DNA from: Lachnospiraceae bacterium
GTDB taxonomy: Bacteria > Bacillota > Clostridia > Lachnospirales > Lachnospiraceae
DNA: 40,405 nt
Direction: 5' to 3'
Assembly: GCA_017938315.1 (NCBI GenBank)
Contig: JAGBBV010000026.1
Span: 1 to 40,405 of the forward strand
A model generated the notes under the pieces. It had not been told where the DNA came from. It saw nothing but the letters and a program-made list of their open reading frames with translations, and did not search any database. Each line of letters begins with the position of its first letter. Position 1 is the first letter of the stretch. Positions 92-28,411 of the stretch are shown here, one piece after another. Position numbers and translations under genes: made by a program.

Positions 92-502
92 CTGATTGAA
101 AAAATACTGATTTTATCAGTACCCGAATCAAAAGGCGAAATTTTTGATAAAATATTGGATGTTGTAAAGCAGTCTGGAATATCGGATGTGACAGAAATAA
201 AAGTAAGTAATGAGAGTGTTATACAAGTTGGCGAATTGATTATTGATTCTTTGCAACACACAATTCATAAAGGAAAGAAAGAGATTAGTGTAACCAATAT
301 AGAATTTCAAATGTTGTATTTTCTAGCATTGCATAAAGGAATGGCAATGTCAAAAGAGCAAATCTATGAATATGTATGGAATGGAGAATATGTTTTTGAA
401 GATAGTAACATTACATCACATATTCGTAGATTGCGAGTGAAAATAGAAGATGATCCGGCAAAGCCTAAATATAATTCAAACGGTTCGTGGGATTGGATAT
501 AA
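92..502 (+). CDS. OmpR/PhoB-type winged-helix DNA-binding protein with frameshifted C-terminus
   Basis: Residues from about 50 onward form a Trans_reg_C winged helix: a core with NIEFQMLYFLALHKG, the recognition-helix region SKEQIYEYVW, and HIRRLRVKIEDDPAKPKY at the start of the wing. The N-terminal part (EKILILSVPESKG) is not a normal receiver domain and shows no phospho-acceptor pattern. No ATG fits. CTG 92 is six bases after GAAAGGGG and keeps the first strand and helix, so I prefer it; TTG 155 would cut a helix in half. The family normally ends in a conserved wing (T-V-R-G-x-G-Y-K). Here the frame changes after PKY, at A473, and ends early at TAA 500-502. Reading one base later restores IQTVRGIGYKV and runs to TGA 528-530. 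The protein may have an altered or non-functional DNA-binding wing, or the extra base may be a sequence error. Confidence 0.7.
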   Translation: MIEKILILSVPESKGEIFDKILDVVKQSGISDVTEIKVSNESVIQVGELIIDSLQHTIHKGKKEISVTNIEFQMLYFLALHKGMAMSKEQIYEYVWNGEYVFEDSNITSHIRRLRVKIEDDPAKPKYNSNGSWDWI

Positions 503-627: not shown

Positions 628-656
628 TTGACATTTTTGGAGAAAAGCCCTATAAT
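628..656 (+). promoter_or_regulatory. Perfect consensus SigA promoter of the defence-like gene block
   Basis: TTGACA at 628-633 and TATAAT at 651-656 are separated by exactly 17 bases. Transcription should start near 663, about 12 bases before the ribosome binding site of the next gene (GGAGGT, 675-680). A promoter this strong suggests the block is either constitutively expressed or held down by a repressor; the XRE-domain protein two genes on is the obvious candidate. Confidence 0.9.
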
Positions 657-687
657 GGTAAAAAATGAAATAATGGAGGTGCTTTAG

Positions 688-1449
688 GTGAAAGATAAAG
701 CATTTAGTTTGGAGGATAAGAACATAGTAAGTATTATCAAGTGTCTGTCAGAGGCTATTGGGGATGATGTAAAGGGTTGTTTACGACGTGAAAATCTTAA
801 TGAAAAACAATCTAATGGAAAGAAGCTTCTAAAGTGGGATTTTATTAATCGAAACTTTATTATGAATTTTTCTGTTGGAAATCTTACGGCAGAATATGCT
901 AAACGTGGTGCATGGAATATGGTGCCGTTGCATGATAAAGAAACTGGAGCGATTTATACTGTGATGAGAGAAGAACGTTTCAGAGAGATTCAAAGGAAGC
1001 AATCGAAGCGTAAAAAAGCTCACTATGTTGATGCACTTGTACAATCATTTAATTTTGACTTGAATACAGAGCATCAGTTATCTTTGTTTGAAGAACAATC
1101 CTTTGATGAAGAGGAAGTTAAGAGTATTGTTGATGATATTATAAAAGATTTTGATATTGAAAAAACAGTTATTAAGAGATATAAGACAATATTATTTGAG
1201 GAATATAACTCTGAATTGATAGCTGTACGTTGTTGTGTATTGGACAGCTCATTACAAGTAGTTGAAGAGGAAGATTGGAGCACATACATTACACATAGCG
1301 AGTCTGTGGTAGTGGATACAGTTGCGGATTCAAATGAATCTCATACTTCAAATATCAAGTTAAAGGATAAGGCACGTAAGAAGGCAGGACAGAGAGAACT
1401 TGTTGCGTTGAAAGAAAATTCACAAGAACAGAAAGTACAAAATAATTAG
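688..1449 (+). CDS. Unknown protein upstream of an XRE-ImmA/IrrE gene
   Basis: First gene after the consensus promoter, with a GTG start at 688 eight bases after GGAGGT. The 253 residues have no signal peptide or membrane segment. The N-terminal half (about 1-110) looks like a compact domain with KWDFINRNFI and GAWNMVPLHDKETGAIYTVMRE; a basic stretch (RKQSKRKKAHY) follows, then an acidic region around 135-155 and a lysine-rich tail. It lies 19 bases before an XRE-ImmA fusion, a pairing seen in toxin-antitoxin-like and prophage-control loci, so it may be the partner (toxin or target) of that protease. I suspect, but cannot confirm, the DUF5986 family. No catalytic motif is evident. Confidence 0.75.
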   Translation: MKDKAFSLEDKNIVSIIKCLSEAIGDDVKGCLRRENLNEKQSNGKKLLKWDFINRNFIMNFSVGNLTAEYAKRGAWNMVPLHDKETGAIYTVMREERFREIQRKQSKRKKAHYVDALVQSFNFDLNTEHQLSLFEEQSFDEEEVKSIVDDIIKDFDIEKTVIKRYKTILFEEYNSELIAVRCCVLDSSLQVVEEEDWSTYITHSESVVVDTVADSNESHTSNIKLKDKARKKAGQRELVALKENSQEQKVQNN

Positions 1450-1468
1450 TTTTGAAGGAGCGGTTATT

Positions 1469-2653
1469 ATGGGAAATGTAATTCCGTTTGAACAGGTAAC
1501 AAGTGGTAAACATTTTAATGGTGAACGTTTGAGAATTGCGAGGATGTGGAGAGGGTATTCGGCTATACAGTTGGCTGAGATGATAGGTGTTAATCGCCAG
1601 ACTATTTCTATGTATGAAAATGGTAAATTGGATAGTCCGGAATTTTCTACGATTCAGAAATTTAGCGAAACATTACAGTTTCCAGTTAAGTTTTTCTTGG
1701 AGGACACAAAAGTTGAAGTTGAAAAGAGTGCAACATATTTTAGATCTTTGCTAACAACAAATAAGAAATATAGAGTTGAACAAGAGGATAAAATAAATTT
1801 TATTGCAGTAATTTATAATATGTTGAATGAATACTTAGAGTTTGAAAAGCTGAATTTGCCACACGTTCCTCGAAATTCAACTCCACAGGAGGCGGCTGAA
1901 TTATTAAGAAATCATTGGAAACTTGGAAATAAGCCTATTGAAAATATTGTTTATTTGGCTGAATCAAATGGACTGATTGTAACTGATTTTGCAACTTCTA
2001 CAGGAGATGTTGATGCATTTAGTCATAAGATAGTATATGGACAAGATGAAACATATTTAATCGGATATTCGAAAAATAAGAAAACGGCAGCCAGAATTCA
2101 CTTTGATATAGCTCACGAACTAGGGCACATATTACTTCATAATTGGAAAGAAGACCTAGAAAATATAGATAAGGAAGATTTTAAAGATATTGAACAAGAG
2201 GCCCATTCTTTTGCTGCTGCCTTTCTTTTACCAGAAAAAGAATTTGCGGAAGATGTAAGACCTTATGCCACAAATTTAGCATATTATGCGGAATTGAAGA
2301 AGAGATGGAAAGTTTCGATTGCGGCTATGATTCGTAGGGCTAAAGATTTGGGGATCATTACGAACGATGATTATAGTAAGCTGATGCGAAACATGCAAAA
2401 ACAAGGAATACGAAAAGTAGAACCCTTAGATGATGAGTTGATGACGGCTGAGCCGTCATTATTGCGTCAAGCAATTAAAATTTTGTTTGAGCAAAATGTA
2501 TTTACGCCGAGTGAATTTTTAGAAGAACTTTCATCAGAATATGGCTTGACCATTTATGCAGATGATATTGAATCGTTATTAAGTTTAAAAGCTGGAACTT
2601 TTGAGGAAGAAAAGAAGACGAAAGTGGTTGTTAGTGTTAAACCAAGGGAATAA
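1469..2653 (+). CDS. XRE-family HTH protein fused to an ImmA/IrrE zinc metallopeptidase
   Basis: The 394-residue protein has an XRE helix-turn-helix at about residues 18-72 (QLAEMIGVNRQTISMYENGK) and an ImmA/IrrE (COG2856) peptidase domain at about 140-300. The zinc-site motif HELGH is at 216-220 and a downstream EQEAHSFAAAFLLP (from 242) supplies the likely third ligand, E244. In ICEBs1 the ImmA protease cleaves the separate repressor ImmR; here DNA binding and peptidase are on one chain, as in fused antitoxin-type regulators such as those reported for RosmerTA-like loci. A C-terminal extension (about 305-394) is of unknown role. AAGGAG lies before the ATG. It probably represses the promoter at 628 or controls its neighbours' activity. 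Confidence 0.9.
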   Translation: MGNVIPFEQVTSGKHFNGERLRIARMWRGYSAIQLAEMIGVNRQTISMYENGKLDSPEFSTIQKFSETLQFPVKFFLEDTKVEVEKSATYFRSLLTTNKKYRVEQEDKINFIAVIYNMLNEYLEFEKLNLPHVPRNSTPQEAAELLRNHWKLGNKPIENIVYLAESNGLIVTDFATSTGDVDAFSHKIVYGQDETYLIGYSKNKKTAARIHFDIAHELGHILLHNWKEDLENIDKEDFKDIEQEAHSFAAAFLLPEKEFAEDVRPYATNLAYYAELKKRWKVSIAAMIRRAKDLGIITNDDYSKLMRNMQKQGIRKVEPLDDELMTAEPSLLRQAIKILFEQNVFTPSEFLEELSSEYGLTIYADDIESLLSLKAGTFEEEKKTKVVVSVKPRE

Positions 2654-2680
2654 TCATAGCAAAAAGGAGAGTAATTTAGA

Positions 2681-3238
2681 ATGCCGAAACTAGAGGATTA
2701 CTTGAAAATTATTGGAGATGATAGATTTGAGATAACTGAAATAAGAGCAGAGGAAGAATGTATAGTTACATTGGATGAACTGAAATCTATTATTACTAAA
2801 TCAAGTGAAATTGAAGCTCAACCCATATGCAACGAAGAGCAGAAGTATTGCGTTTGTTGTATATTAGAAGGAAAAGTAGTTGCGTTTGATGTGCGTAATA
2901 GAACGAAAGATGTGAATTTTTTGGATTTCTATTTTAATGATGAAATTCATGATTACAATGATTTAATGAGTCTCTTACAAAAAGAAAAAGTTTTTCCGGC
3001 AGGAATCATAGATGGAGATTATAGGAAACGCTTTAATGTAGAAAGTGATTTTGTTGTTGCGTCTGATCTGATATATGTGAATGATAATGCATATCCATAT
3101 AAGATTTATAAAGAGAAATTTTCTTATTTTAGATATGATTACAGTTTTGAAACATTTGGGGCTTGTGATAATTGTTTGTATATATATTTTAAAGATAATA
3201 CAAGTGTTAAAATGTGTATTGCTGATTACAGCAAATAA
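2681..3238 (+). CDS. Unknown 185-residue protein, third gene of the block
   Basis: The ATG is preceded by AAAAGGAGAG and lies 27 bases after the XRE-ImmA stop, so it is co-transcribed and may be functionally tied to it. The protein has no signal peptide or membrane segment, is rich in aromatic residues (FSYFRYDYSF) and has scattered cysteines, including a CVCC cluster near residue 58 and a C-x2-C (CDNC) near 163, which do not form a clear zinc site. The fold looks mixed alpha/beta. I do not recognise the family. A secreted role is unlikely; a toxin, immunity or adaptor role in the block is possible but is inference only. Confidence 0.7.
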   Translation: MPKLEDYLKIIGDDRFEITEIRAEEECIVTLDELKSIITKSSEIEAQPICNEEQKYCVCCILEGKVVAFDVRNRTKDVNFLDFYFNDEIHDYNDLMSLLQKEKVFPAGIIDGDYRKRFNVESDFVVASDLIYVNDNAYPYKIYKEKFSYFRYDYSFETFGACDNCLYIYFKDNTSVKMCIADYSK

Positions 3239-3278
3239 ATCTGAGCATTAAGAATGAAAATACAGGTATGTTTTTGTG

Positions 3279-3304
3279 AAAAGTGGCGACACGTCGCCAC
3301 TTTT
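3279..3304 (+). repeat. Perfect 12-bp palindrome upstream of the DUF1016 nuclease gene
   Basis: AAAAGTGGCGAC (3279-3290) and GTCGCCACTTTT (3293-3304) are exact inverted repeats separated by AC. As RNA this is a hairpin ending in four U, which could be a weak terminator after the 185-residue gene; as DNA it could be an operator. Its left 14 bases recur exactly inside the next gene at 3617-3630. Confidence 0.75.
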
Positions 3305-3320
3305 GAGAAAGGAGAATTAG

Positions 3321-4367
3321 ATGCCTGAGGAATTAATGAACACGACAGATGTAGAGACTATATTTTCTGATATATCGACAATGATTTATGATGCCAAGAA
3401 TGAGGTGATGTTGAGAGTAAATACCTCAGTCATCACATTATACTGGAATATAGGAAAGAAACTGTCAGAAGAGGTATTACAAGGGAAAAAAGCAGATTAT
3501 GGTAAGAATATAATTGGTGATTTGAGCGAAAGACTGACGGCTGAATACGGAAAAGGCTTTGAAAAATCTTCAGTTTTTAAAATGGTTAAATTTTATCAAG
3601 AGTTTCCAGAGTATGAAAAAGTGGCGACACTGTCGCAACAATTGACATGGTCACATTTTGTAGAACTTTTACCTATCGAGGATGAGTTGAAAAGAGATTT
3701 TTATGCTGTTATGTGTAAGAATGAAAATTGGTCAGTAAGAACTTTACGTGAACGGAAAAAATCAATGTTATATGAACGTACAGCGATATCTAAAATGCCG
3801 GAAGAAACAATAGCAAATGAAATCGCCGAACTGCGTGACGACAAAAAAATGTCGTTGGATATGTTTTATAGAGATCCCTATATGTTGGATTTCCTCGGAT
3901 TAAAAGACACATATAGTGAAAAAGATTTAGAAAATGCGATTTTGGCAGAATTGGAAAAATTCATTCTTGAAATGGGTTCTGATTTTGCTTTTCTGGCACG
4001 CCAAAAGCACATTGTTTTAGATGGGAAAGACTACTATATGGATTTATTGTTCTATCATCGTACATTGAGGAGATTAGTATTGATAGAATTAAAACTTGGT
4101 GAATTTGAACCACAAGATAAGGGGCAGACAGAGTTATACCTTCGGTGGCTTGAAAAATATGAGAAAGCTGAAGGAGAAGAAAGCCCGGTGGCATTAATTT
4201 TGTGTGCAGAGAAATCACAAGAAACGATTGAATTAATGGAATTAGATCATGGAAGTATACATGTAGGGCAGTATTTAACGAAAATGCCACCTAAAGAACT
4301 ATTGGAGAAGAAACTGTCATTGGCAATTGCTAATGCAAGGAAACAGTTGGAGCAACGAAAAGAATAG
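3321..4367 (+). CDS. DUF1016 / PDDEXK-family nuclease (YhcG-like)
   Basis: The 348 residues match the DUF1016 architecture: an N-terminal helical, winged-helix-like domain (about 10-150) containing the family hallmark LSQQLTWSHFVELLPI, and a C-terminal PDDEXK nuclease domain (about 175-335). The likely catalytic residues are D241 (YYMDLLFY) and E256-x-K258 (LIELKLG), followed by the conserved DKGQTELYLRWL. All expected active-site residues are present, so it should be an active nuclease. The family is common in restriction-modification and defence islands, but its substrate is not well established. GAAAGGAG precedes the ATG. A palindrome sits just upstream. Confidence 0.93.
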   Translation: MPEELMNTTDVETIFSDISTMIYDAKNEVMLRVNTSVITLYWNIGKKLSEEVLQGKKADYGKNIIGDLSERLTAEYGKGFEKSSVFKMVKFYQEFPEYEKVATLSQQLTWSHFVELLPIEDELKRDFYAVMCKNENWSVRTLRERKKSMLYERTAISKMPEETIANEIAELRDDKKMSLDMFYRDPYMLDFLGLKDTYSEKDLENAILAELEKFILEMGSDFAFLARQKHIVLDGKDYYMDLLFYHRTLRRLVLIELKLGEFEPQDKGQTELYLRWLEKYEKAEGEESPVALILCAEKSQETIELMELDHGSIHVGQYLTKMPPKELLEKKLSLAIANARKQLEQRKE

Positions 4368-4486
4368 GTATTATATAGATAGCACTTGGTGGGACACATA
4401 GTTGGAACATGAGATGTAGGAAAATAGCAAAACATAGATGATAAAATTACGAAATGTCAATTCATATCGCAGAGGGAGAATGTAGG

Positions 4487-5716
4487 ATGAAAGAAAAATT
4501 ATTGTCTTTAATTAATAAAATTGATGATATAAAAAAGCTAGCACATGAAGAGCATGTTTCGGGATTTTTTGAGTCGGATTTTGTTATCTATGATGTTCCG
4601 GAATTTATCATGTGGAAACAACAAATATTATTAGAATTGAAAGAAATAAGTAAGGGTGATGATTTTATTTGTTCAACAATAGAGCTCGCAGAGAAATTTA
4701 AGGGATTTGATGATAAAAAGAATTTTAATGAGCTAACAGGTGCTTTGTTTGCAATTAAGGAAAATATAGATAAATATTATAAAGAAAATGGACAGGGAGA
4801 TAGCAATATGGAAGAAAAAAGCAAAATGATATTTATTAGTCATTCTTCAATAGATAAGGAATACATTGTTGCGTTTATTGAACTGTTAGAAGGAATTGGT
4901 TTGCATGAAGATGAAATTGTTTGCTCATCGATTCCACCATATTGCATTCCACTTGACGGAAAGGTATATGAGTGGCTTGTAGATAAATTTCAGAATTGTG
5001 AATTACATGTATTCTATATGTTGTCTCATAATTATTATAGTAGCGCAGCAAGCTTAAATGAAATGGGAGCGGCATGGGCTATGAAACAAAAATGGAGTGC
5101 TATTTTGCTACCTAGTTTTGGATTTAATGAGATTGCAGGGTGTATAGACCCTACGCAAATAGGAATAAAATTGGATGATAGTGATCTTCAAACTTTGAAG
5201 TATAGGCTTGGAGAATTGAAAGATAATCTAATATCTGAATTTGGCTTGCGTGGAATATCGCATTCATTATGGGAACGAAAGAGAGATGCTTTTTTATCAA
5301 AAATAAATGTGATAGTTGAAGAGCAAAAAAATAGAGAAGAAATAGAAACAGAAGAAAGTACTGACATATATAGAGTGGTGAGCCCTATAAAACAAGATAA
5401 AATAACGATTTATGCGTGTATATTACTGGCGTACGCTGCAGAGGACCCATATGGTCAAATAATGTTAATAAGAACATTAGGATCAACAGGAATATCTACG
5501 AATAAATTTACTTTCAATAAGGATACGTCAGCAAGAGAAATTGCTAGATGGACTTCCGCAATTGATGAGTTGATGGTGCAGGGATATATAAAACTTGTTG
5601 GTAGAAAGGATAAGATATATCAGGTTACAGATATTGGATATAATTTTGCGGATCAGATTAAAAAAGAGTTAAGCATAGATACTAATAATGAGCCATGTAC
5701 ATATATAACGGACTAG
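4487..5716 (+). CDS. TIR-domain protein with helical N-terminus and winged-helix-like C-terminus
   Basis: A start at ATG 4487 is chosen because GAGGGA lies nine bases upstream; an in-frame ATG at 4454 has no ribosome binding site. In this 409-residue form residues 1-105 are mostly helical and unrecognised, about 112-235 form a TIR domain (MIFISHSSIDKEYIVAF for strand A and helix A; SSAASLNEMGAAW at the helix that carries the NADase glutamate, E192), and about 300-400 resemble a winged helix (EIARWTSAIDELMVQGYI, then a beta hairpin with YQVTDIGYNFA). Bacterial TIR domains commonly cleave NAD+ or make cyclic ADP-ribose signals in phage defence (Thoeris ThsB and others). The gene is followed by a membrane protein gene 67 bases on. 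A role in signalling or abortive infection is inferred. Confidence 0.85.
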   Translation: MKEKLLSLINKIDDIKKLAHEEHVSGFFESDFVIYDVPEFIMWKQQILLELKEISKGDDFICSTIELAEKFKGFDDKKNFNELTGALFAIKENIDKYYKENGQGDSNMEEKSKMIFISHSSIDKEYIVAFIELLEGIGLHEDEIVCSSIPPYCIPLDGKVYEWLVDKFQNCELHVFYMLSHNYYSSAASLNEMGAAWAMKQKWSAILLPSFGFNEIAGCIDPTQIGIKLDDSDLQTLKYRLGELKDNLISEFGLRGISHSLWERKRDAFLSKINVIVEEQKNREEIETEESTDIYRVVSPIKQDKITIYACILLAYAAEDPYGQIMLIRTLGSTGISTNKFTFNKDTSAREIARWTSAIDELMVQGYIKLVGRKDKIYQVTDIGYNFADQIKKELSIDTNNEPCTYITD

Positions 5717-5783
5717 TCAAGATAGGTTTATAGTGGAAGAATTTCTGATGTGTCACAAGACAAACGGATAATAAACAAAAGAA

Positions 5784-7817
5784 GTGGAGAAGTATGCCTT
5801 GGAATTTTTTTTAAAAACTTTAATTGATTATGCATTTAATAATCAGTTGGTTATTGATAAAGGTACATATTTAACAATTGTAATTGGTCAGATTACGGTA
5901 TATGCAATCTTATTGACCTTTTACCAATTTATTGTGTCGTTTCAAGGAACAAACGATAGGAGTGTTCTGAAATATTTGGGGATTAATTTGATAGAATACT
6001 TTGTAAACAAGAGACTAGTGATTTACAACCGAATAATTTCAAAACCACTGTTTGGATTCCTATTTATTTTAGAGATTTTGTACAAGCCTATAATTTCTAT
6101 ATATGAAAATGAAATTCCGGATAATATAATAACTGTATTCAATTTTATTTGGTATACATATGTTGTTTGTTTCTTTGTAGTATTTGTTATGTTGTTTTTT
6201 CAATGTACGAGGTGCATTTTATCTATTAAAATGGTAATAGATAGAAGACGTAATGCAAATATAATAAGATGTATTAACAATGATTTTAGAAAAAAGACAT
6301 TTGCTGAGCTATTGAAGAAAAGCAGCATAGATATGCTTATGGATGACATGAAATATTTAAGATATTCAATTGCAGAAGATGACGATTCAGAATTACAAGC
6401 GGAGTATAATAAATTAATTATTGATATATTTGACGACTATGTAAAAAGAAAGGAACAAGAAATAACGCTTCTATTAGCAAAGAATAAAAAAGTTAAGAAT
6501 CAAATAGCATGGATATATAATATGAACAATGAATGCTGGTTGCTCAGTGAATTCATGAAGGGAAAATATATTCAAGTAGATTATTTACTAGAGAAATATA
6601 TTCAAGATTTACATTTGAGTTTGTTGAATCTGAATTTGAAAAGAGGAGGGGCGGATGGATATGAGAAGATAGCTATTGATATTTTTGATTCTAATAAAGA
6701 TGCAATAGAATGCAGAGAATGGAAAGAACTTACAGAAGATATATTTGAAAAATCAAATCTTAAGAATAAGAAAAGAATGATTGAATCTTTATATAATGGA
6801 TATTATTCTGAGAATAATCTAATAAAAAAGTATTGCGAGACAACATTGTTATGTATAATGAGAAAGTTCATATGGGAGGTGTTCGAAGACAAGAGACAAC
6901 AAGAAGACTTTGCATATGTGTTTGCATACGTATTGCATAATGATGGATTTAATGATTTCTATGCGAGGAAAATGTGTGATAGTTTGATTTCGTATAATGA
7001 AAAAAATGTCACAGAGTTAATTAAATTGGTAAATAAAGAAAATTGCACATATATATTTGCTTATTTAGTAATTTATTATTCTATATACAAATTTAGGTTT
7101 GAGTGGAAAAATATAAACATTGCAATGCTCAAAGAACTTATCGGGAATGGGAAAAACTTAGAAAGCGAATTTGAAAGAATTAATAGTATAATTACAAATT
7201 CCTGTATTAATCATCGTTATTCTAACGATATGTATATAGCGTTAGTAGAAAATTTAGATAAAACAATTACGGGGAAATGGCTAGAAGAGATTTATCAACA
7301 AAAAAATATTGATGCCTTTTATGTGACAATTATAAAATTGTGTGTGTTTGGGCAGACCTACTGCTCGTTTTATCAAGAAGGTGGGATAGAAGCTAAAATC
7401 TCTTTTATTAGTGAATTGGCCAAACACAAAGAAGTTTTGCTCTTTGATAATGTAAAGAAGATGTTTTTACAATTGCAATATAATGATTTCCGTGAACTAG
7501 GGTATTGGCCTGAAAAATTGCATATTACACTGCGGAGCTTGTTGTTAATGAATATGGGTATATTGGATGAACTATTAGATGATAAGATTAAATATCTCCA
7601 TTATACAAGTGTAGGTCAATACTTACTTATTAAGCATGCAGGAGAAAATAGCATTAGCGAAGTAAAAAGGGATTTAATAAGAAAGGCATATGTGGCCAGC
7701 AATATGTCGATTCAAGAGTATGTGGAACTCTTATGTAGTGAATGTTGTATTTGTGGTGTAGAACTTAGTTATGTAATAAAAGAAAAAATGAAAAGTTATT
7801 TGATGGAAGTAATATAG
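5784..7817 (+). CDS. Large unknown protein with three N-terminal membrane segments
   Basis: Hydrophobic stretches at about residues 29-53, 88-108 and 115-140 predict three membrane helices; the remaining 530 or so residues are charged, helix-rich and probably cytoplasmic, with no nuclease, ATPase or other motif that I recognise. The start is uncertain: GTG 5784 has a poor upstream ribosome binding site, while TTG 5799 sits nine bases after a GGAG (residue numbering here uses GTG). It is the last gene of the block, directly after the TIR gene, and is as AT-rich as the others. A plausible but unproven role is the membrane-acting effector of a TIR-triggered system. It could also be an unrelated element protein. 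Confidence 0.7.
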   Translation: MEKYALEFFLKTLIDYAFNNQLVIDKGTYLTIVIGQITVYAILLTFYQFIVSFQGTNDRSVLKYLGINLIEYFVNKRLVIYNRIISKPLFGFLFILEILYKPIISIYENEIPDNIITVFNFIWYTYVVCFFVVFVMLFFQCTRCILSIKMVIDRRRNANIIRCINNDFRKKTFAELLKKSSIDMLMDDMKYLRYSIAEDDDSELQAEYNKLIIDIFDDYVKRKEQEITLLLAKNKKVKNQIAWIYNMNNECWLLSEFMKGKYIQVDYLLEKYIQDLHLSLLNLNLKRGGADGYEKIAIDIFDSNKDAIECREWKELTEDIFEKSNLKNKKRMIESLYNGYYSENNLIKKYCETTLLCIMRKFIWEVFEDKRQQEDFAYVFAYVLHNDGFNDFYARKMCDSLISYNEKNVTELIKLVNKENCTYIFAYLVIYYSIYKFRFEWKNINIAMLKELIGNGKNLESEFERINSIITNSCINHRYSNDMYIALVENLDKTITGKWLEEIYQQKNIDAFYVTIIKLCVFGQTYCSFYQEGGIEAKISFISELAKHKEVLLFDNVKKMFLQLQYNDFRELGYWPEKLHITLRSLLLMNMGILDELLDDKIKYLHYTSVGQYLLIKHAGENSISEVKRDLIRKAYVASNMSIQEYVELLCSECCICGVELSYVIKEKMKSYLMEVI

Positions 7818-7933: not shown

Positions 7934-8033
7934 CCCCGAAGAAAAACAGAATAACGCCAAGAATGCATATAATAAGTGGATAAAATGGTACAAAAAAGTA
8001 ACAGACCGGTTACTGTGCTCAACCCAATCAGAC

Positions 8034-8087
8034 CGTGAAGGTGGACGTACTGTAGGTTCAGGTAGTGTTGCTACTATCATCGAATAA
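8034..8087 (+). pseudogene. tuf: 3'-terminal fragment of tuf (elongation factor Tu), probable integration junction
   Basis: The frame ending at TAA 8085-8087 reads REGGRTVGSGSVATIIE, the conserved C-terminus of bacterial EF-Tu. Homology stops abruptly at the R codon: the preceding codons bear no resemblance to EF-Tu and no start is present, so this is a 17-codon remnant and not a gene. The terminator right after it fits a native tuf 3' end. The simplest reading is that an element integrated in or next to the 3' end of tuf, leaving this copy at the junction and an intact tuf (or tuf plus element) to the left of the window. Rearrangement without site-specific integration is also possible. Confidence 0.8.
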
Positions 8088-8136
8088 TTTTAACTGATTA
8101 TTTAAACTAGTTAAAATAGAATTGATTTAATAATCA

Positions 8137-8175
8137 AGTCGCAATCTTATAGAAATATAGGATTGCGGCTTTTTT
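8137..8175 (+). terminator. Strong Rho-independent terminator after the tuf remnant
   Basis: A 15-bp stem (8137-8151 with 8156-8170, two G-U pairs in RNA) is capped by a GAAA tetraloop and followed by five T. It is 50 bases after the tuf stop and isolates the racemase operon from anything upstream. Confidence 0.9.
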
Positions 8176-8176
8176 A

Positions 8177-8205
8177 TTGTGGTAATATTTTACAACTGTT
8201 ATAAT
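8177..8205 (+). promoter_or_regulatory. SigA promoter of the racemase operon
   Basis: TTGTGG (8177-8182) and TATAAT (8200-8205) are spaced by 17 bases. Directly downstream, 8214-8227 reads GATAATGATAATAG, two copies of the GATAAT hexamer used in Fur boxes, so metal control of this promoter is possible. Only two hexamers are clear, and in AT-rich DNA this may be chance. Confidence 0.65.
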
Positions 8206-8255
8206 AGAAAAATGATAATGATAATAGTAAAACACAGACGCAGGAGAGAATGCTT

Positions 8256-8948
8256 GTGAAAAAGATAGGTCTTGTAGGTGGTATCGGACCGGCATCAACG
8301 GTAGAATATTACCTTGGTTTGATTCAAAAATGTCAAAATGAGTTGGGGCAAAATGTGTATCCGGAAATTGTGATTGATAGTGTAAATATGACGAAGCATG
8401 ATGAGGCTCTTAGAGAGAAAAATTATGATAAATTGTGTGAGTATTTATTAGTAAGTCTATCCAATTTGAAAACTGCCGGTGCGGAAGTTGCTGCAATTAC
8501 AGCAAATACGGAGCATATCGTTTGGGAGATGATTGCTGATAAGGTTCCCCTGCCTGTTATTAATATAGTGGATGCTGTTGTAAAGTCTATTCGCGAGAAA
8601 AAATACAAACGGGTTCTTGTTTTTGGTACAGAGTTTACGATGAGGAGCGGCCTGTATAAAAGCGAGTTACTAAAAAGAGGTATTGTGCCTATTATTCCAA
8701 CAGGCGAAGACATTGAGCACATTGGAAAATTAATTTATCCTAATTTAGAAAATGGCATTGTTGTGGAAGCGGACAAAGCAAAATTGTTGGAGTTGGCAGA
8801 AAAGTATATTGCCAGAGAAAAAGCAGATGCGTTATTGCTTGGATGCACAGAACTTCCACTTGCCATTAAAGAAACGGATGTGAATGTTCCACTTTTAAAC
8901 TCTACAGAAATACATATTAATGAAATATATTATGAAGCTATAAAATGA
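8256..8948 (+). CDS. Aspartate/glutamate racemase family protein lacking the first catalytic cysteine
   Basis: The 230-residue protein begins KKIGLVGGIGPASTVEYY, typical of the Asp/Glu racemase superfamily, and ends its second domain with GCTELPL (C197). The first catalytic position, normally the Cys of a C-N-T-x-H motif, is Ala here (ITANTEH, A83). A similar asymmetry occurs in some family members (the E. coli YgeA type uses Thr there), so the enzyme may use one cysteine, a different substrate, or be a lyase. GTG 8256 is nine bases after AGGAG; ATG 8250 is only three bases after it. The next gene, a P5C reductase-like protein, follows after 36 bases, suggesting a shared amino-acid pathway. 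Confidence 0.85.
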   Translation: MKKIGLVGGIGPASTVEYYLGLIQKCQNELGQNVYPEIVIDSVNMTKHDEALREKNYDKLCEYLLVSLSNLKTAGAEVAAITANTEHIVWEMIADKVPLPVINIVDAVVKSIREKKYKRVLVFGTEFTMRSGLYKSELLKRGIVPIIPTGEDIEHIGKLIYPNLENGIVVEADKAKLLELAEKYIAREKADALLLGCTELPLAIKETDVNVPLLNSTEIHINEIYYEAIK

Positions 8949-8984
8949 TAAAATAATGCATTAACAAAACAAGAGAGGAAGAAA

Positions 8985-9797
8985 ATGAAAGTCGGAGTTA
9001 TTGGTTATGGAAGTATGGGTAAGATGCTTTTGGAGAAACTCTCCTTAAATAGCAATCTAATTGATGAGAAATTATATGTGGCAAATAGAAGCTATGAGAA
9101 AATAGCTGATTTGGCTAAAGAGTATCATGTATGTCACAGCAATCAAGAGATTGCCAAAGAGGTCGATATACTTTTTATCTGTGTCAGACCTATTAATATG
9201 AAAAATGTGTTGGAAGAAATAAAAACCACTTTAAGGGAAGAACAGATGATTGTGTCTCTCAATGGAAGTATTACTTTTGAACAGATAGAGAGTGTATGTA
9301 AGAATAAAGTGGTAAAGGCGATACCAAGTGTGTTGGCCGAGATAAATAAATCGCAAACATTGCTTTGCTGTAATGCATTGGTAAATGAGCAGGATAAAGT
9401 AACTATAAAAGATTTGTTATCCGGTATAGGTTCTGTAATAGAATTACCGGAGTCAGAGATGGGAATGGGCTCAGAACTTGTTAGTTGTATGCCGGGATTT
9501 ATAGCAGCGATATTTAATGAAATTTGCTTATCGGCACAAAAGCATACAAGCATTGCAACTGAAAAAATTGTTCAAATGGTATTAAATACAATGATAGGAA
9601 CAGGGCAATTAATGATTGAAAACGATCATTCCTATCAGGAAGTTATTACAAGAGTAGCGACAAAAGGCGGAATTACAGAAGAAGGTGTAAAGGTAATACA
9701 AGAATCGTTTCCGCAAGTTTCTGACTCGATTTTTGAAAAAACATTAGAGAAACGAAGACAGACTGCTTTGAATGCGCAGAAAGCATTTAAAGAATAA
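8985..9797 (+). CDS. Pyrroline-5-carboxylate reductase family protein (ProC/ComER-like)
   Basis: 270 residues with an N-terminal NAD(P)-binding Rossmann fold (GYGSMG at 7-12) and the C-terminal dimerisation domain bearing the family signature (VATKGGITEEGVKVI). P5C reductase makes proline from pyrroline-5-carboxylate. The CDS is co-directional with the racemase upstream and has a ribosome binding site AGAGAGGAAG. It is slightly divergent from canonical ProC, for example in the region before the signature (MPGFIAAIFNEICLSAQKH), and could be a ProC paralogue such as ComER acting on another imine. proB lies 17 kb away, so this is not a classic pro operon. Confidence 0.85.
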   Translation: MKVGVIGYGSMGKMLLEKLSLNSNLIDEKLYVANRSYEKIADLAKEYHVCHSNQEIAKEVDILFICVRPINMKNVLEEIKTTLREEQMIVSLNGSITFEQIESVCKNKVVKAIPSVLAEINKSQTLLCCNALVNEQDKVTIKDLLSGIGSVIELPESEMGMGSELVSCMPGFIAAIFNEICLSAQKHTSIATEKIVQMVLNTMIGTGQLMIENDHSYQEVITRVATKGGITEEGVKVIQESFPQVSDSIFEKTLEKRRQTALNAQKAFKE

Positions 9798-9823
9798 TTT
9801 TTATGAAAAAGGAGAGTTTATTT

Positions 9824-10399
9824 ATGAAACAACATTTGAAAAAATCCATTTTGAGTGTATTACTTACTTCCTGCATTCTATTCACTGTTGGATGCGGGAC
9901 AACATCATTAAATTCTGATTATGATGACGATAAAAATGCGGAAGTATCTGTTTCTAAGTCGCAGGAAGATGAAACTTCTTTTATTACTGAATATAAGTGG
10001 CAGGGAGCTAAGGATGGTTCGCTTATGGTATTTGAACCGGACGGAAATTTTAAATATTATCGTTATGCCGATGATTTAGACGACAATTATTATTACGGAA
10101 CTTATGTATTTAATATTGGAAGTTCAGCAGTACAATATTTAACTACTGACTTAGCTGATAATGGTGTTACAGCAGACGAATTGCAGACCATTTTCGATAA
10201 CAATGAAGGATATGATGAATCCAATTTTGTATGTCTGGTACTAAATAATGAAGCATGTATTATTGATGGGGAAAATCAGGTGGAAAATCCTTATCAGACT
10301 CCTTACTTTGGATTCTGCTTGGAGGATACGGATGGAACGTTGGTTTTAGATCTTGCGAATATGAACACCGGAAATTATTCCACGTTTATTGCAAAATAA
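9824..10399 (+). CDS. Small secreted lipoprotein of unknown function
   Basis: ATG 9824 is nine bases after AAAGGAG and gives a 191-residue protein with a lipoprotein signal: basic KQHLKK, a hydrophobic core (ILSVLLTSCILF) and a lipobox ending TVGC, C24. An in-frame ATG at 9803 lies before the ribosome binding site and is rejected. The mature part is acidic, with a linker rich in Asp and Ser, then a beta-rich domain (KWQGAKDGSLMVFEPDGNFKYY, GTYVF) similar in style to small cell-surface lipoproteins of clostridia. No enzymatic motif. It follows the P5C reductase-like gene closely and may be in its operon. Confidence 0.8.
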   Translation: MKQHLKKSILSVLLTSCILFTVGCGTTSLNSDYDDDKNAEVSVSKSQEDETSFITEYKWQGAKDGSLMVFEPDGNFKYYRYADDLDDNYYYGTYVFNIGSSAVQYLTTDLADNGVTADELQTIFDNNEGYDESNFVCLVLNNEACIIDGENQVENPYQTPYFGFCLEDTDGTLVLDLANMNTGNYSTFIAK

Positions 10400-10425
10400 A
10401 AAAAGGTGTAGACGAGTAATAAGTT

Positions 10426-11100
10426 ATGGCATTTCAGATGATACATATGGAAATTGCATACAGACTTTTGGAACGCATTCCGCAAATAGAAAATGCTGCA
10501 GAATTTATTCTTGGTTCTGTGGCTCCGGACAGTGTGCATATGAATCCATGTTTTAATATTCAGATGAAGGTGAAATCCCATATGTTTGAAGGCTGCGGAA
10601 ACTGGAGTGACACGCAGGACTATGACCGATGGAAAAGCAATATCCATTCAGTATTTTCCCAAGTTGCCTATGAAAAAGACAAAAGATACAGAGATTTCAC
10701 ATTAGGCTTATGTGTCCATTGCCTTACTGACTACAGGAATGATTTAAACATATGGAGAAAATTACAAAAACAATACATACCTCCGATGAAGTTAGAAGAG
10801 TTTAAAGAAGCATATTATCCGGAAGCAAGAGGCATTGATTTGTGGCTTTATCAAAACAGTGAGCATACTGAAACAATTAGAAAAATGCTGTCAGAGGCTG
10901 TTGCTTTACCGGTAGAAAGATTAGTAAACAAAGAAGATATAGAAAGCCAACGGAAGCATTTGTTAAATGTACAATATAATGTTAATATAGTTGATATAGT
11001 AAATTATCATTTTTTATCAGAAAGTACACTTAGAGAGTTTATAGATTTTACAGTAAATGATATTGCAGAAACAATAAAGACTTGGAAAGTGAGAGAATAA
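10426..11100 (+). CDS. Zinc-dependent phospholipase C-like family protein
   Basis: 224 residues with the pattern of the zinc-dependent PLC / S1-P1 fold family: H7 (MIHMEIA), D35 in GSVAPD, H52 (KSHMFEG), and H98 and D102 in GLCVHCLTDYRND, which would ligate the zinc cluster. It lacks a signal peptide, so it acts inside the cell, unlike secreted clostridial alpha-toxin. Substrate unknown. The ribosome binding site before ATG 10426 is weak (AAAAGGTG is about 18 bases upstream). Its stop codon overlaps the next start by one base (TAATG at 11098-11102), so it is translationally coupled to the deacetylase. Confidence 0.8.
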   Translation: MAFQMIHMEIAYRLLERIPQIENAAEFILGSVAPDSVHMNPCFNIQMKVKSHMFEGCGNWSDTQDYDRWKSNIHSVFSQVAYEKDKRYRDFTLGLCVHCLTDYRNDLNIWRKLQKQYIPPMKLEEFKEAYYPEARGIDLWLYQNSEHTETIRKMLSEAVALPVERLVNKEDIESQRKHLLNVQYNVNIVDIVNYHFLSESTLREFIDFTVNDIAETIKTWKVRE

Positions 11101-27107: not shown

Positions 27108-28346
27108 TTAGGCAAGAGAATGAATAAAAAGTCCGCTTCTAAGTTTGGGTTCAAACCAAGTAGACTTAGGGGGCATCAAAAGTCCTGCATCAGCTACCTG
27201 AAGGAGCTCACCGATGGAAGTGGGATACATGGAAAATGCCACAGTCATATCTTCGGAAACTCTCTTTTCTAATTCAGCTAGTCCGCGGATACCTCCTACG
27301 AAATCAATGCGGTTATCGGTTCTGGGATCCTCAATTCCGAGGATAGGTTTTAACAGATGATTCTGAAGGACAGATACATCAAGGCCTTCTACAGGGTCAT
27401 CGGATTTAAGGGAATCATTTGCGGTAAGTAAATACCATTGTCCATCAAGATACATACCGAAGGTTCCTTTTTCAGTAGGAGATACGGGAGAACTTTCTGC
27501 CGTAATCTGAAAACCTGCTTTTTCAACTAAAGCAAGGAATTCTTCTTTGGAAGCACCCTTTAAATCTTTTACCACTCTGTTATAAGGAAGAATGGCAAGC
27601 TGGTCATCGGGGAAGAGTACGGAAAGAAAACGGTTGTACTCTTCATCACCTGTGTAATTCGGGTTTTGCTCGCGGCGTTTTAAACCTACTTTTACGGCAG
27701 AAGCACATCTGTGATGGCCGTCTGCAATGTAAGTGCAGGGAACTTCTGCAAATAAAGTGGCAAGTTTTTTAATTGTTTCCGCTTCAGAGATGCACCATGC
27801 TCTGTGAGTAATGCCGTCATCGGAAGTAAAATCATAGAGAGGTGTTTTGGCTTTTTCTGCGGTAACGATATCATTAATCGCAGCCACAGAACGGTAAGCA
27901 AGAAAAATCGGACCGGTATGTGCATTTGTGGTATCCACGTGTCGGATGCGGTCGATTTCCTTTTCTTCTCTGGTATTTTCATGCTTTTTGATAATCTGGT
28001 TCTGATAATCGTCAATATCAGAGCAGGCAACAATACCTGTCTGGGAACGTCCGTCCATAATCAATTCATATATGTAGTAACAAGGTGTTTCTTCTATTAC
28101 ATAGTTTCCCTTTGCAATGGCTTCATCCAGCATTTCTTTTGCCTTGGCATAAACGCGGTCATCATAGGTACTTACATCATCAGAAAACTGGGTTTCCGCT
28201 CTGTCGATTGCAAGGAAAGATAAAGGTTCTTTTTTAACAATTTCAAGTGCTTCCTTGCGGTTATAAACATCATAGGGAAGTGCAGCGATGCGGCTTACCA
28301 ATGAAGGCGCAGGACGGACACTTTTAAAAGGTGTTACTTTAGGCAT
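27108..28346 (-). CDS. DUF1015 (COG4198) family protein
   Basis: 412 residues matching DUF1015 throughout: ALPYDVYNRKEA near the N-terminus, KHENTREEKEIDR in the middle and the hallmark YIADGHHRCASA (D209-R213). This DGHHR block recalls ParB/Srx-fold enzymes such as ADP-dependent serine kinases, and the family often sits near serine biosynthesis genes in clostridia. Here no serA or serC is adjacent, so the function stays open. It is expressed from a perfect consensus promoter, so it is probably abundant. Confidence 0.9.
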   Translation of the reverse strand: MPKVTPFKSVRPAPSLVSRIAALPYDVYNRKEALEIVKKEPLSFLAIDRAETQFSDDVSTYDDRVYAKAKEMLDEAIAKGNYVIEETPCYYIYELIMDGRSQTGIVACSDIDDYQNQIIKKHENTREEKEIDRIRHVDTTNAHTGPIFLAYRSVAAINDIVTAEKAKTPLYDFTSDDGITHRAWCISEAETIKKLATLFAEVPCTYIADGHHRCASAVKVGLKRREQNPNYTGDEEYNRFLSVLFPDDQLAILPYNRVVKDLKGASKEEFLALVEKAGFQITAESSPVSPTEKGTFGMYLDGQWYLLTANDSLKSDDPVEGLDVSVLQNHLLKPILGIEDPRTDNRIDFVGGIRGLAELEKRVSEDMTVAFSMYPTSIGELLQVADAGLLMPPKSTWFEPKLRSGLFIHSLA

Positions 28347-28382: not shown

Positions 28383-28411
28383 ATTATACGTTCCTTATTA
28401 ACAAGTGTCAA
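28383..28411 (-). promoter_or_regulatory. Perfect consensus promoter of the DUF1015 gene
   Basis: On the minus strand TTGACA (28411-28406), 17 bases, TATAAT (28388-28383). The ribosome binding site GGAGGA lies just before the start at 28346. Confidence 0.9.

Follow-up and report, generated by a model that had tools for sequence, protein, structure and literature searches.

When six genes stand side by side on one strand behind a single perfect promoter, are they one machine, or several that share an address? That is the question raised by positions 628 to 7817 of a 40,405-nucleotide contig (JAGBBV010000026.1, forward strand) of a Lachnospiraceae bacterium (assembly GCA_017938315.1). The contig (C21 of a 2.63-Mb genome) is the whole stretch of DNA we analyzed, and we call it the window. 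An earlier, sequence-only reading had seen in this block a repressor-protease, a nuclease, a TIR protein, a membrane protein and two genes without a name, beside a remnant of tuf, and had left it between one system and two or three adjacent ones. Our answer is that the block, whose genes we call G1 to G6 (Table 1), is a defence island on a probable mobile element and not a new six-gene system. With fair confidence, we read it as cargo for defence, carried next to attR by an integrative element that has entered tuf at its 3′ end, and as several modules stacked together rather than one machine. Most of its parts are of known kinds; what is new is the architecture of G5 and the tuf address.

Table 1 Features of the block and its immediate surroundings, in window coordinates
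Feature	Position	Strand	Basis
OmpR-type winged-helix gene fragment (Trans_reg_C)	97-502	+	Pfam 3.3e-17
Perfect sigma-70 promoter, TTGACA-N17-TATAAT	628-656	+	exact-pattern scan, 0.03 expected per window
G1, RmrT toxin of RosmerTA (DUF5986), 253 aa	688-1449	+	PADLOC RmrT 5.8e-65; Pfam DUF5986 4.4e-51
G2, RmrA antitoxin/repressor, 394 aa	1469-2653	+	PADLOC RmrA 1.2e-157; Pfam M78 3.6e-17
G3, 185 aa	2681-3238	+	no library match at E <0.01
Strong hairpin, possible weak terminator, G3/G4 gap	3279-3304	+	-19.4 kcal/mol, z -4.3
G4, DUF1016_N + YhcG_C PDDEXK nuclease, 348 aa	3321-4367	+	Pfam 5e-45, 5.5e-45; PADLOC PDC-S02 2e-123
G5, SpbK-type TIR NADase with C-terminal AUX, 420 aa	4454-5716	+	PADLOC spbK 5.6e-64; PDB 9phb SpbK
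TIR domain of G5	about 4811-5323	+	PADLOC/PDB SpbK match
AUX domain of G5, winged helix, aa 316-420	5399-5713	+	47/100 identical to DUF4062 protein
G6, 677 aa, N-terminal hydrophobic stretches	5784-7817	+	hydropathy only
tuf 3′ end copy, read as attR	8033-8087	+	exact core 30 bp, 8033-8062
Terminator-like hairpin, chromosome side just past the tuf remnant	8136-8171	+	hairpin scan

The evidence lies in the company these genes keep elsewhere. Among 250 genomes of the family (the same set for each of the five genes searched, G1 and G3 to G6; E 0.001, own genome included), G4 has a match in 109, G5 in 16, G1 and G3 in two each and G6 in one. Two of the 16 (G027, G118) match G5 through its C-terminal AUX domain alone. 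Homologues of all six as a unit almost never co-occur in the genomes searched, which speaks against a single six-gene system. Two or three adjacent systems fit better: G1 and G2 recur elsewhere as a pair, the best relatives of G4 stand apart from the other five, and the neighbours of G5 relatives include genes of BREX and of type I restriction. That no named system has this set remains true of the whole but not of the parts, G1-G2 being RosmerTA, G5 SpbK-like and G4 the candidate system PDC-S02. A PADLOC run, as the sequence-only reading had proposed, returned matches to RmrT, RmrA, PDC-S02 and spbK. As far as sequence comparison carries, the defence-cargo reading is supported.

The layout is as first described, with six plus-strand open reading frames (from a program-made list) spanning 688-7817. 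The perfect promoter is there as well, one of two exact matches in the window; a looser scan found 32 promoter-like sites against 41 in shuffles, which is not above chance. The other exact match lies at 28383-28411 on the minus strand, upstream of a minus-strand gene for 412 aa (27108-28346). Less secure is the notion of all six genes as a single unit behind that promoter, given the strong hairpin between G3 and G4, and any co-transcription is a prediction. The block had also been called much more AT-rich than its flank. At 31.9% guanine plus cytosine (G+C) it is so against positions 11001-40405 (40.0%) but not against the adjoining 8088-11000 (34.6%). Upstream of the block, just inside the start of the contig, lies the OmpR-type fragment, which has no receiver domain and shows a frameshift near its end in three-frame translation.

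The tuf remnant noted at the right end of the block is real. It agrees with the intact tuf end on contig C16 exactly over 30 bp and at 51 of 56 bp overall. Beyond the intact tuf on C16 come other genes, among them an XRE-like regulator and an excisionase-like gene (both named by sequence reading) and a tyrosine integrase 3.8 kb from tuf (Pfam 3.2e-21), and then the contig ends. With its target repeated at the end away from tuf and an integrase at the tuf end, this is an apparent integrative element in the tuf 3′ end with the block next to attR; the element may be mobile. Right-flank genes of the window also lie near a tuf remnant in relatives, a racemase 5.6 kb away in G589 and a deacetylase 3.4 kb away in G587.

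The tail of tuf has matches in 18 of 37 genomes of the genus, at 28 places, of which 26 were read (all but G626:C76, which lies at a contig end, and a match of 28 bp in G623). Intact or contig-cut tuf genes account for 14 of these; the 12 others, spread over 11 genomes, are remnants. Three remnants (L120, L155, L158) are too close to a contig end for judging. Five of the nine others border PADLOC defence genes, a raw count without a random-place baseline. These are the window with its block; L118, with AbiEi/AbiEii; L154, with PDC-S53 and DUF1016; L160, with BrxL, PglZ and a DUF1016 gene recognized by its G4 match and by the start it shares with that of L154; and L161, with DruE, a NERD-helicase-like protein and DUF1016 (Druantia-like). 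Two more are ambiguous: at L153 the Argonaute-associated matches are weak, and at L164 the nearest candidate is a type II methyltransferase at a distance of 3.3 kb. DUF1016 stands beside four of the nine, though it is common in the family anyway (109/250). The copies of the tuf 3′ end at L118, L153, L154, L160, L161, L164 and in the window constitute a candidate integration hotspot for defence cargo in the genus; on tuf as an integration site, nothing to the point was found among the literature matches listed. At L154 (11314-12487) a further tyrosine integrase comes directly after the remnant, which might itself have served a second element for insertion.

The first module is RosmerTA. G1 and G2 match the PADLOC models near full length, adjacent and in the same order. 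G2 has the XRE helix-turn-helix (HTH; Pfam HTH_3) and ImmA/IrrE metalloprotease (Peptidase_M78) domains that the sequence-only reading had named, with an HELGH motif at aa 216; against the NCBIfam spr1629 antitoxin model it scores 223.6 bits, under the cut-off of 335. Adjacent homologues of the pair are found in phage phiCD418 (33% and 51% identity) and in genome G087 (24% and 40%), and no homologue of G3-G6 occurs in the 8-11 kb around these two pairs. The RmrT/RmrA pair is adjacent in loci L100 and L104. What differs here is the 185-aa G3 next to the pair. RosmerTA unites different toxins, each with an ImmA-protease antitoxin, and one such system has been validated against phages, according to the available portion of PMC10440598. 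The toxicity of G1-G2, and protection from phages by the pair, are predictions from this kinship.

G4 would be a module by itself. Pfam agrees that it is a DUF1016 protein, and both Pfam domains lie above their gathering scores and near full length, with no difference seen from the DUF1016/YhcG family. PADLOC lists that family, PDC-S02, as a defence candidate only. Around six of the strongest matches to G4, in two of which the gene is short or split, the six regions inspected hold no homologue of the other five genes. A palindrome upstream of G4, GTGGCGAC, was considered as a family trait and rejected: among the 33 upstream regions listed, only that of L057 has a G+C-rich palindrome near the start, and its sequence is another. 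Palindromes with arms of 8-12 bp do lie just upstream of some DUF1016 genes (L057, L154, L160), their sequences differing except in the L154/L160 pair.

G3 and G6 keep almost no company at all. Neither has a match at E <0.01 in Pfam, PADLOC, NCBIfam or PHROGs, nor a credible relative in the searches made. For G3 there is one weak match, over 52 residues, in 249 other genomes of the family, and no relative in the two other collections searched, plasmids and viral contigs. G6 had been called a protein with three transmembrane segments, and hydropathy alone does give three N-terminal hydrophobic stretches (27-52, 78-107, 114-152), plus a weak one at 647-665. Relatives of G6 are confined to its own genome, one of 37 in the genus. 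Across the phylum there are matches in three of 299 genomes, its own and two more (G632, G843) that we rejected as chance, their weak matches falling over purine-synthesis and penicillin-binding genes. A weak match in G000:C15 covers 85 aa at 34%, with one internal stop. Plasmids, phages and viral contigs yielded none, and neither did a genome-contig pattern scan, which reaches close relatives only. A predicted model of G6, with no relatives in the input, had a mean predicted local distance difference test (pLDDT) score of 40.3, too poor for use.

SpbK is the TIR NADase of ICEBs1 in Bacillus subtilis, and it is the closest guide we have to G5. The TIR label given to G5 from its sequence stands because PADLOC spbK and, among PDB entries, the SpbK chain (2.4e-24) both match it; for Pfam TIR_2 it does not reach the threshold (0.067). 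The likelier start is the ATG at 4487, which has a ribosome-binding-site-like GAGGGAG upstream and lines up with the starts of relatives L025 and L026. In G5, N202, E203, G205 and W208 take the positions of SpbK N191, E192, G194 and W197 (SpbK residues from the accessible part of PMC12847820). The catalytic glutamate is present, and with these residues in place NADase activity is predicted. The predicted model (pLDDT 81.9) shows four helices at the N-terminus, a candidate counterpart of the four-helix bundle of SpbK. In the available portions of PMC12847820 and PMC11984713, portal sensing by SpbK is assigned to its N-terminal bundle; by analogy, G5 may sense portals too. The difference lies at the other end. 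SpbK stops after the TIR domain, to judge from what is accessible of PMC12847820, whereas G5 goes on for about 130 residues, which form a long helix and then the winged helix of AUX, and because of this extra domain we call it SpbK-like and not SpbK proper.

Eleven regions around G5 matches were read, three of them (L028, L030, L031) without typing of the neighbours. One relative lies between PglX and PglZ (L025, 7931-8986), one after BrxL (L026, 8057-9211) and one between type I R and S genes (L029, 7301-8155), PADLOC confirming the TIR in each. Neighbors elsewhere include an HNH_5 protein (L027), a CHAT protein (L024) and a protein with an HNH match just under the cut-off (L023). At L028 (960-1806) the N-terminal and TIR parts of a G5 relative fall in two open reading frames with stops between, and the gene is probably broken. 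In L032 and L033 the AUX part alone matches G5, and there it sits on DUF4062 proteins.

That last observation took us to the C-terminal domain. The C-terminal part of G5 matches a DUF4062 protein at 5e-22 in a two-sequence test (identity in Table 1); where AUX itself scored 83.6 bits, none of 100 shuffled versions exceeded 23.9. A scan with a three-sequence alignment found 171 genome-contig stretches that fit the pattern, 17 of which encode a relative, and two scans of viral contigs gave one relative each. Of the 19 AUX-bearing frames, 14 are long proteins with a DUF4062 start motif; AUX matches all 14 of these and the N-terminal and TIR parts of G5 none. Pfam DUF4062 gives 2.3e-29 for L032 (the L070 protein) and 1.1e-29 for L080. 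Two further frames are SpbK-type TIRs (L063; L085, the same as L023), one has a sub-threshold DUF4062 match (L084, 0.0026) and two are short (L075, L083). AUX follows a TIR domain in L026, L067 and L089 too. In L089, a viral contig (4828-6795), a 655-aa protein has a long, different N-terminal region, then TIR, then AUX. All five plasmid matches are Synechococcus elongatus proteins annotated DUF4062 (1e-5; sub-threshold in Pfam). AUX is uncommon, since just five of 341 genomes in a class-wide draw, own included, have it. In a tree of the 19 domains G5 falls next to DUF4062 copies; support there is weak (80/41) and the branches are long, and the tree no more than suggests a recent swap of AUX. 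Fusicatenibacter, Hominisplanchenecus and Blautia share a DUF4062 protein with AUX that is identical or almost so (L069, L070, L071), probably by recent transfer between gut genera.

How firmly does the preferred reading stand, that of separate modules carried as cargo at tuf? Several points weigh against it. The ends of the element are on two contigs (C16:1, C21:1), joined by inference only, and the remnants L156 and L157 have no PADLOC match among the three proteins tested. The likeness of the G5 N-terminus to SpbK is one of predicted helix layout, the PADLOC spbK match beginning only at aa 72. The validated RosmerTA toxin is membrane-depolarising and, in the accessible part of PMC10440598, belongs to another family than the DUF5986 of G1, so G1 may act in another way; no mention of DUF5986 was found in the literature searched. 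One could instead take the six co-directional genes, with one perfect promoter upstream and gaps of 19, 27, 82, 86 and 67 bp, as a single defence system with RmrA as master regulator. We consider that very improbable when G1-G2 are found without the others, each of G1, G3 and G6 is in 1-2 of the 250 genomes and G4 in 109, G5 relatives sit in other operons, and a hairpin separates G3 from G4. Nor is it likely that the remnant is a relic of tuf duplication, the genes having gathered by other routes without any tuf-using element. More than one tuf tail per genome is possible (28 places in 18 genomes), and the element in this genome is not closed on one contig. Yet integrase genes stand beside intact tuf in L119, L121, L163 and L168 (by sequence reading, with Pfam applied to L119 and to the integrase after the L154 remnant), and the remnants of the window, L118 and L120 begin at the same position.

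Within the stack, G5 invites its own alternatives. It might pair with G6, its TIR domain making a cyclic ADP-ribose signal and membrane-bound G6 acting as the effector, as in Thoeris-like systems. The two genes are adjacent on the same strand with a 67-bp gap, G6 has its hydrophobic stretches, and the products of SpbK include N1-cADPR in the available part of PMC12847820. But no region around G5 relatives, and no other set searched, holds a relative of G6, and its model is too poor to help; we rate such a pair improbable. The weightier matter is what AUX does. Winged helices are common DNA-binding folds, and AUX may be a DNA-binding or assembly domain, G5 sensing phages by its N-terminal bundle alone, like SpbK. 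The N-terminal 115 residues of SpbK suffice for portal binding in the accessible part of PMC11984713, and in the PDB the AUX profile A4 found no match to KpSwz, the Swarozyc protein (11cq/11cv), its best match being FliG at 0.0082; a single AUX sequence did no better. Searches of the PDB with a cyanobacterial DUF4062-like protein and an Acinetobacter plasmid DUF4062 protein gave no match to the KpSwz AUX either. With the Acinetobacter protein the match to KpSwz is confined to 4-197, a sign that DUF4062 proteins differ at their C-termini. Whole-G5 fold searches, in a library ending in April 2026, listed mainly TIR proteins and barely covered AUX; the absence of KpSwz from the matches listed counts for neither side. 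Against a non-sensor role, AUX is a C-terminal accessory domain of DUF4062 proteins, and in L089 it comes after TIR with another N-terminal region. In Swarozyc, the one DUF4062 system studied, with a TIR-like NADase as effector, the C-terminal auxiliary domain has an HTH/winged fold, binds the phage portal and is needed for defence (available portion of the preprint PMC13174449). Over its DUF4062 domain, L032 matches KpSwz at 8.9e-26. The effector of G5 is a canonical TIR and not DUF4062. AUX is thus of interest: it also occurs in the family that supplies the effector of Swarozyc, itself a portal sensor, and the portal sensing of SpbK lies in a different domain. A non-sensor AUX seems to us plausible, if short of an even chance. 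It is possible, though doubtful, that AUX is a portable portal sensor swapped between SpbK-type TIR and DUF4062 NADases, leaving G5 with two portal-gripping domains flanking its TIR that read two ring faces or two kinds of portal. The available main text of PMC13174449 makes no mention of SpbK, and in the literature searched, with most subscription papers outside it, we found no statement of a domain shared by SpbK-type TIR and DUF4062 proteins.

If the modular reading is right, a phage infecting this bacterium might meet three defences. RmrA, a repressor and protease-type antitoxin, would restrain RmrT until infection disturbs RmrA, and RmrT would then arrest the cell. The DUF1016/YhcG nuclease would act alone, presumably cutting foreign DNA. 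In the third module G5 would grip a structural component of the phage, the portal ring being the likeliest, with its N-terminal helical bundle, with AUX or with both; TIR domains would cluster, NAD+ would be destroyed, and the infected cell would die before phage release. G3 and G6 would be passengers or partners.

Taken by themselves RosmerTA and the DUF1016 nuclease, both already familiar in kind, would be of little significance. In the 3′ end of tuf there would be a fixed site from which defence cargo could be gathered in gut bacteria. Should AUX prove to be a shared sensor, it would offer a domain of about 100 residues, movable between two effector folds, with which to study recognition by these NADases, and SpbK and Swarozyc, portal-sensing systems described separately, would become sensor-effector combinations drawn from one set of parts. 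A swapped sensor would suggest that bacteria exchange such parts between families of suicide enzymes.

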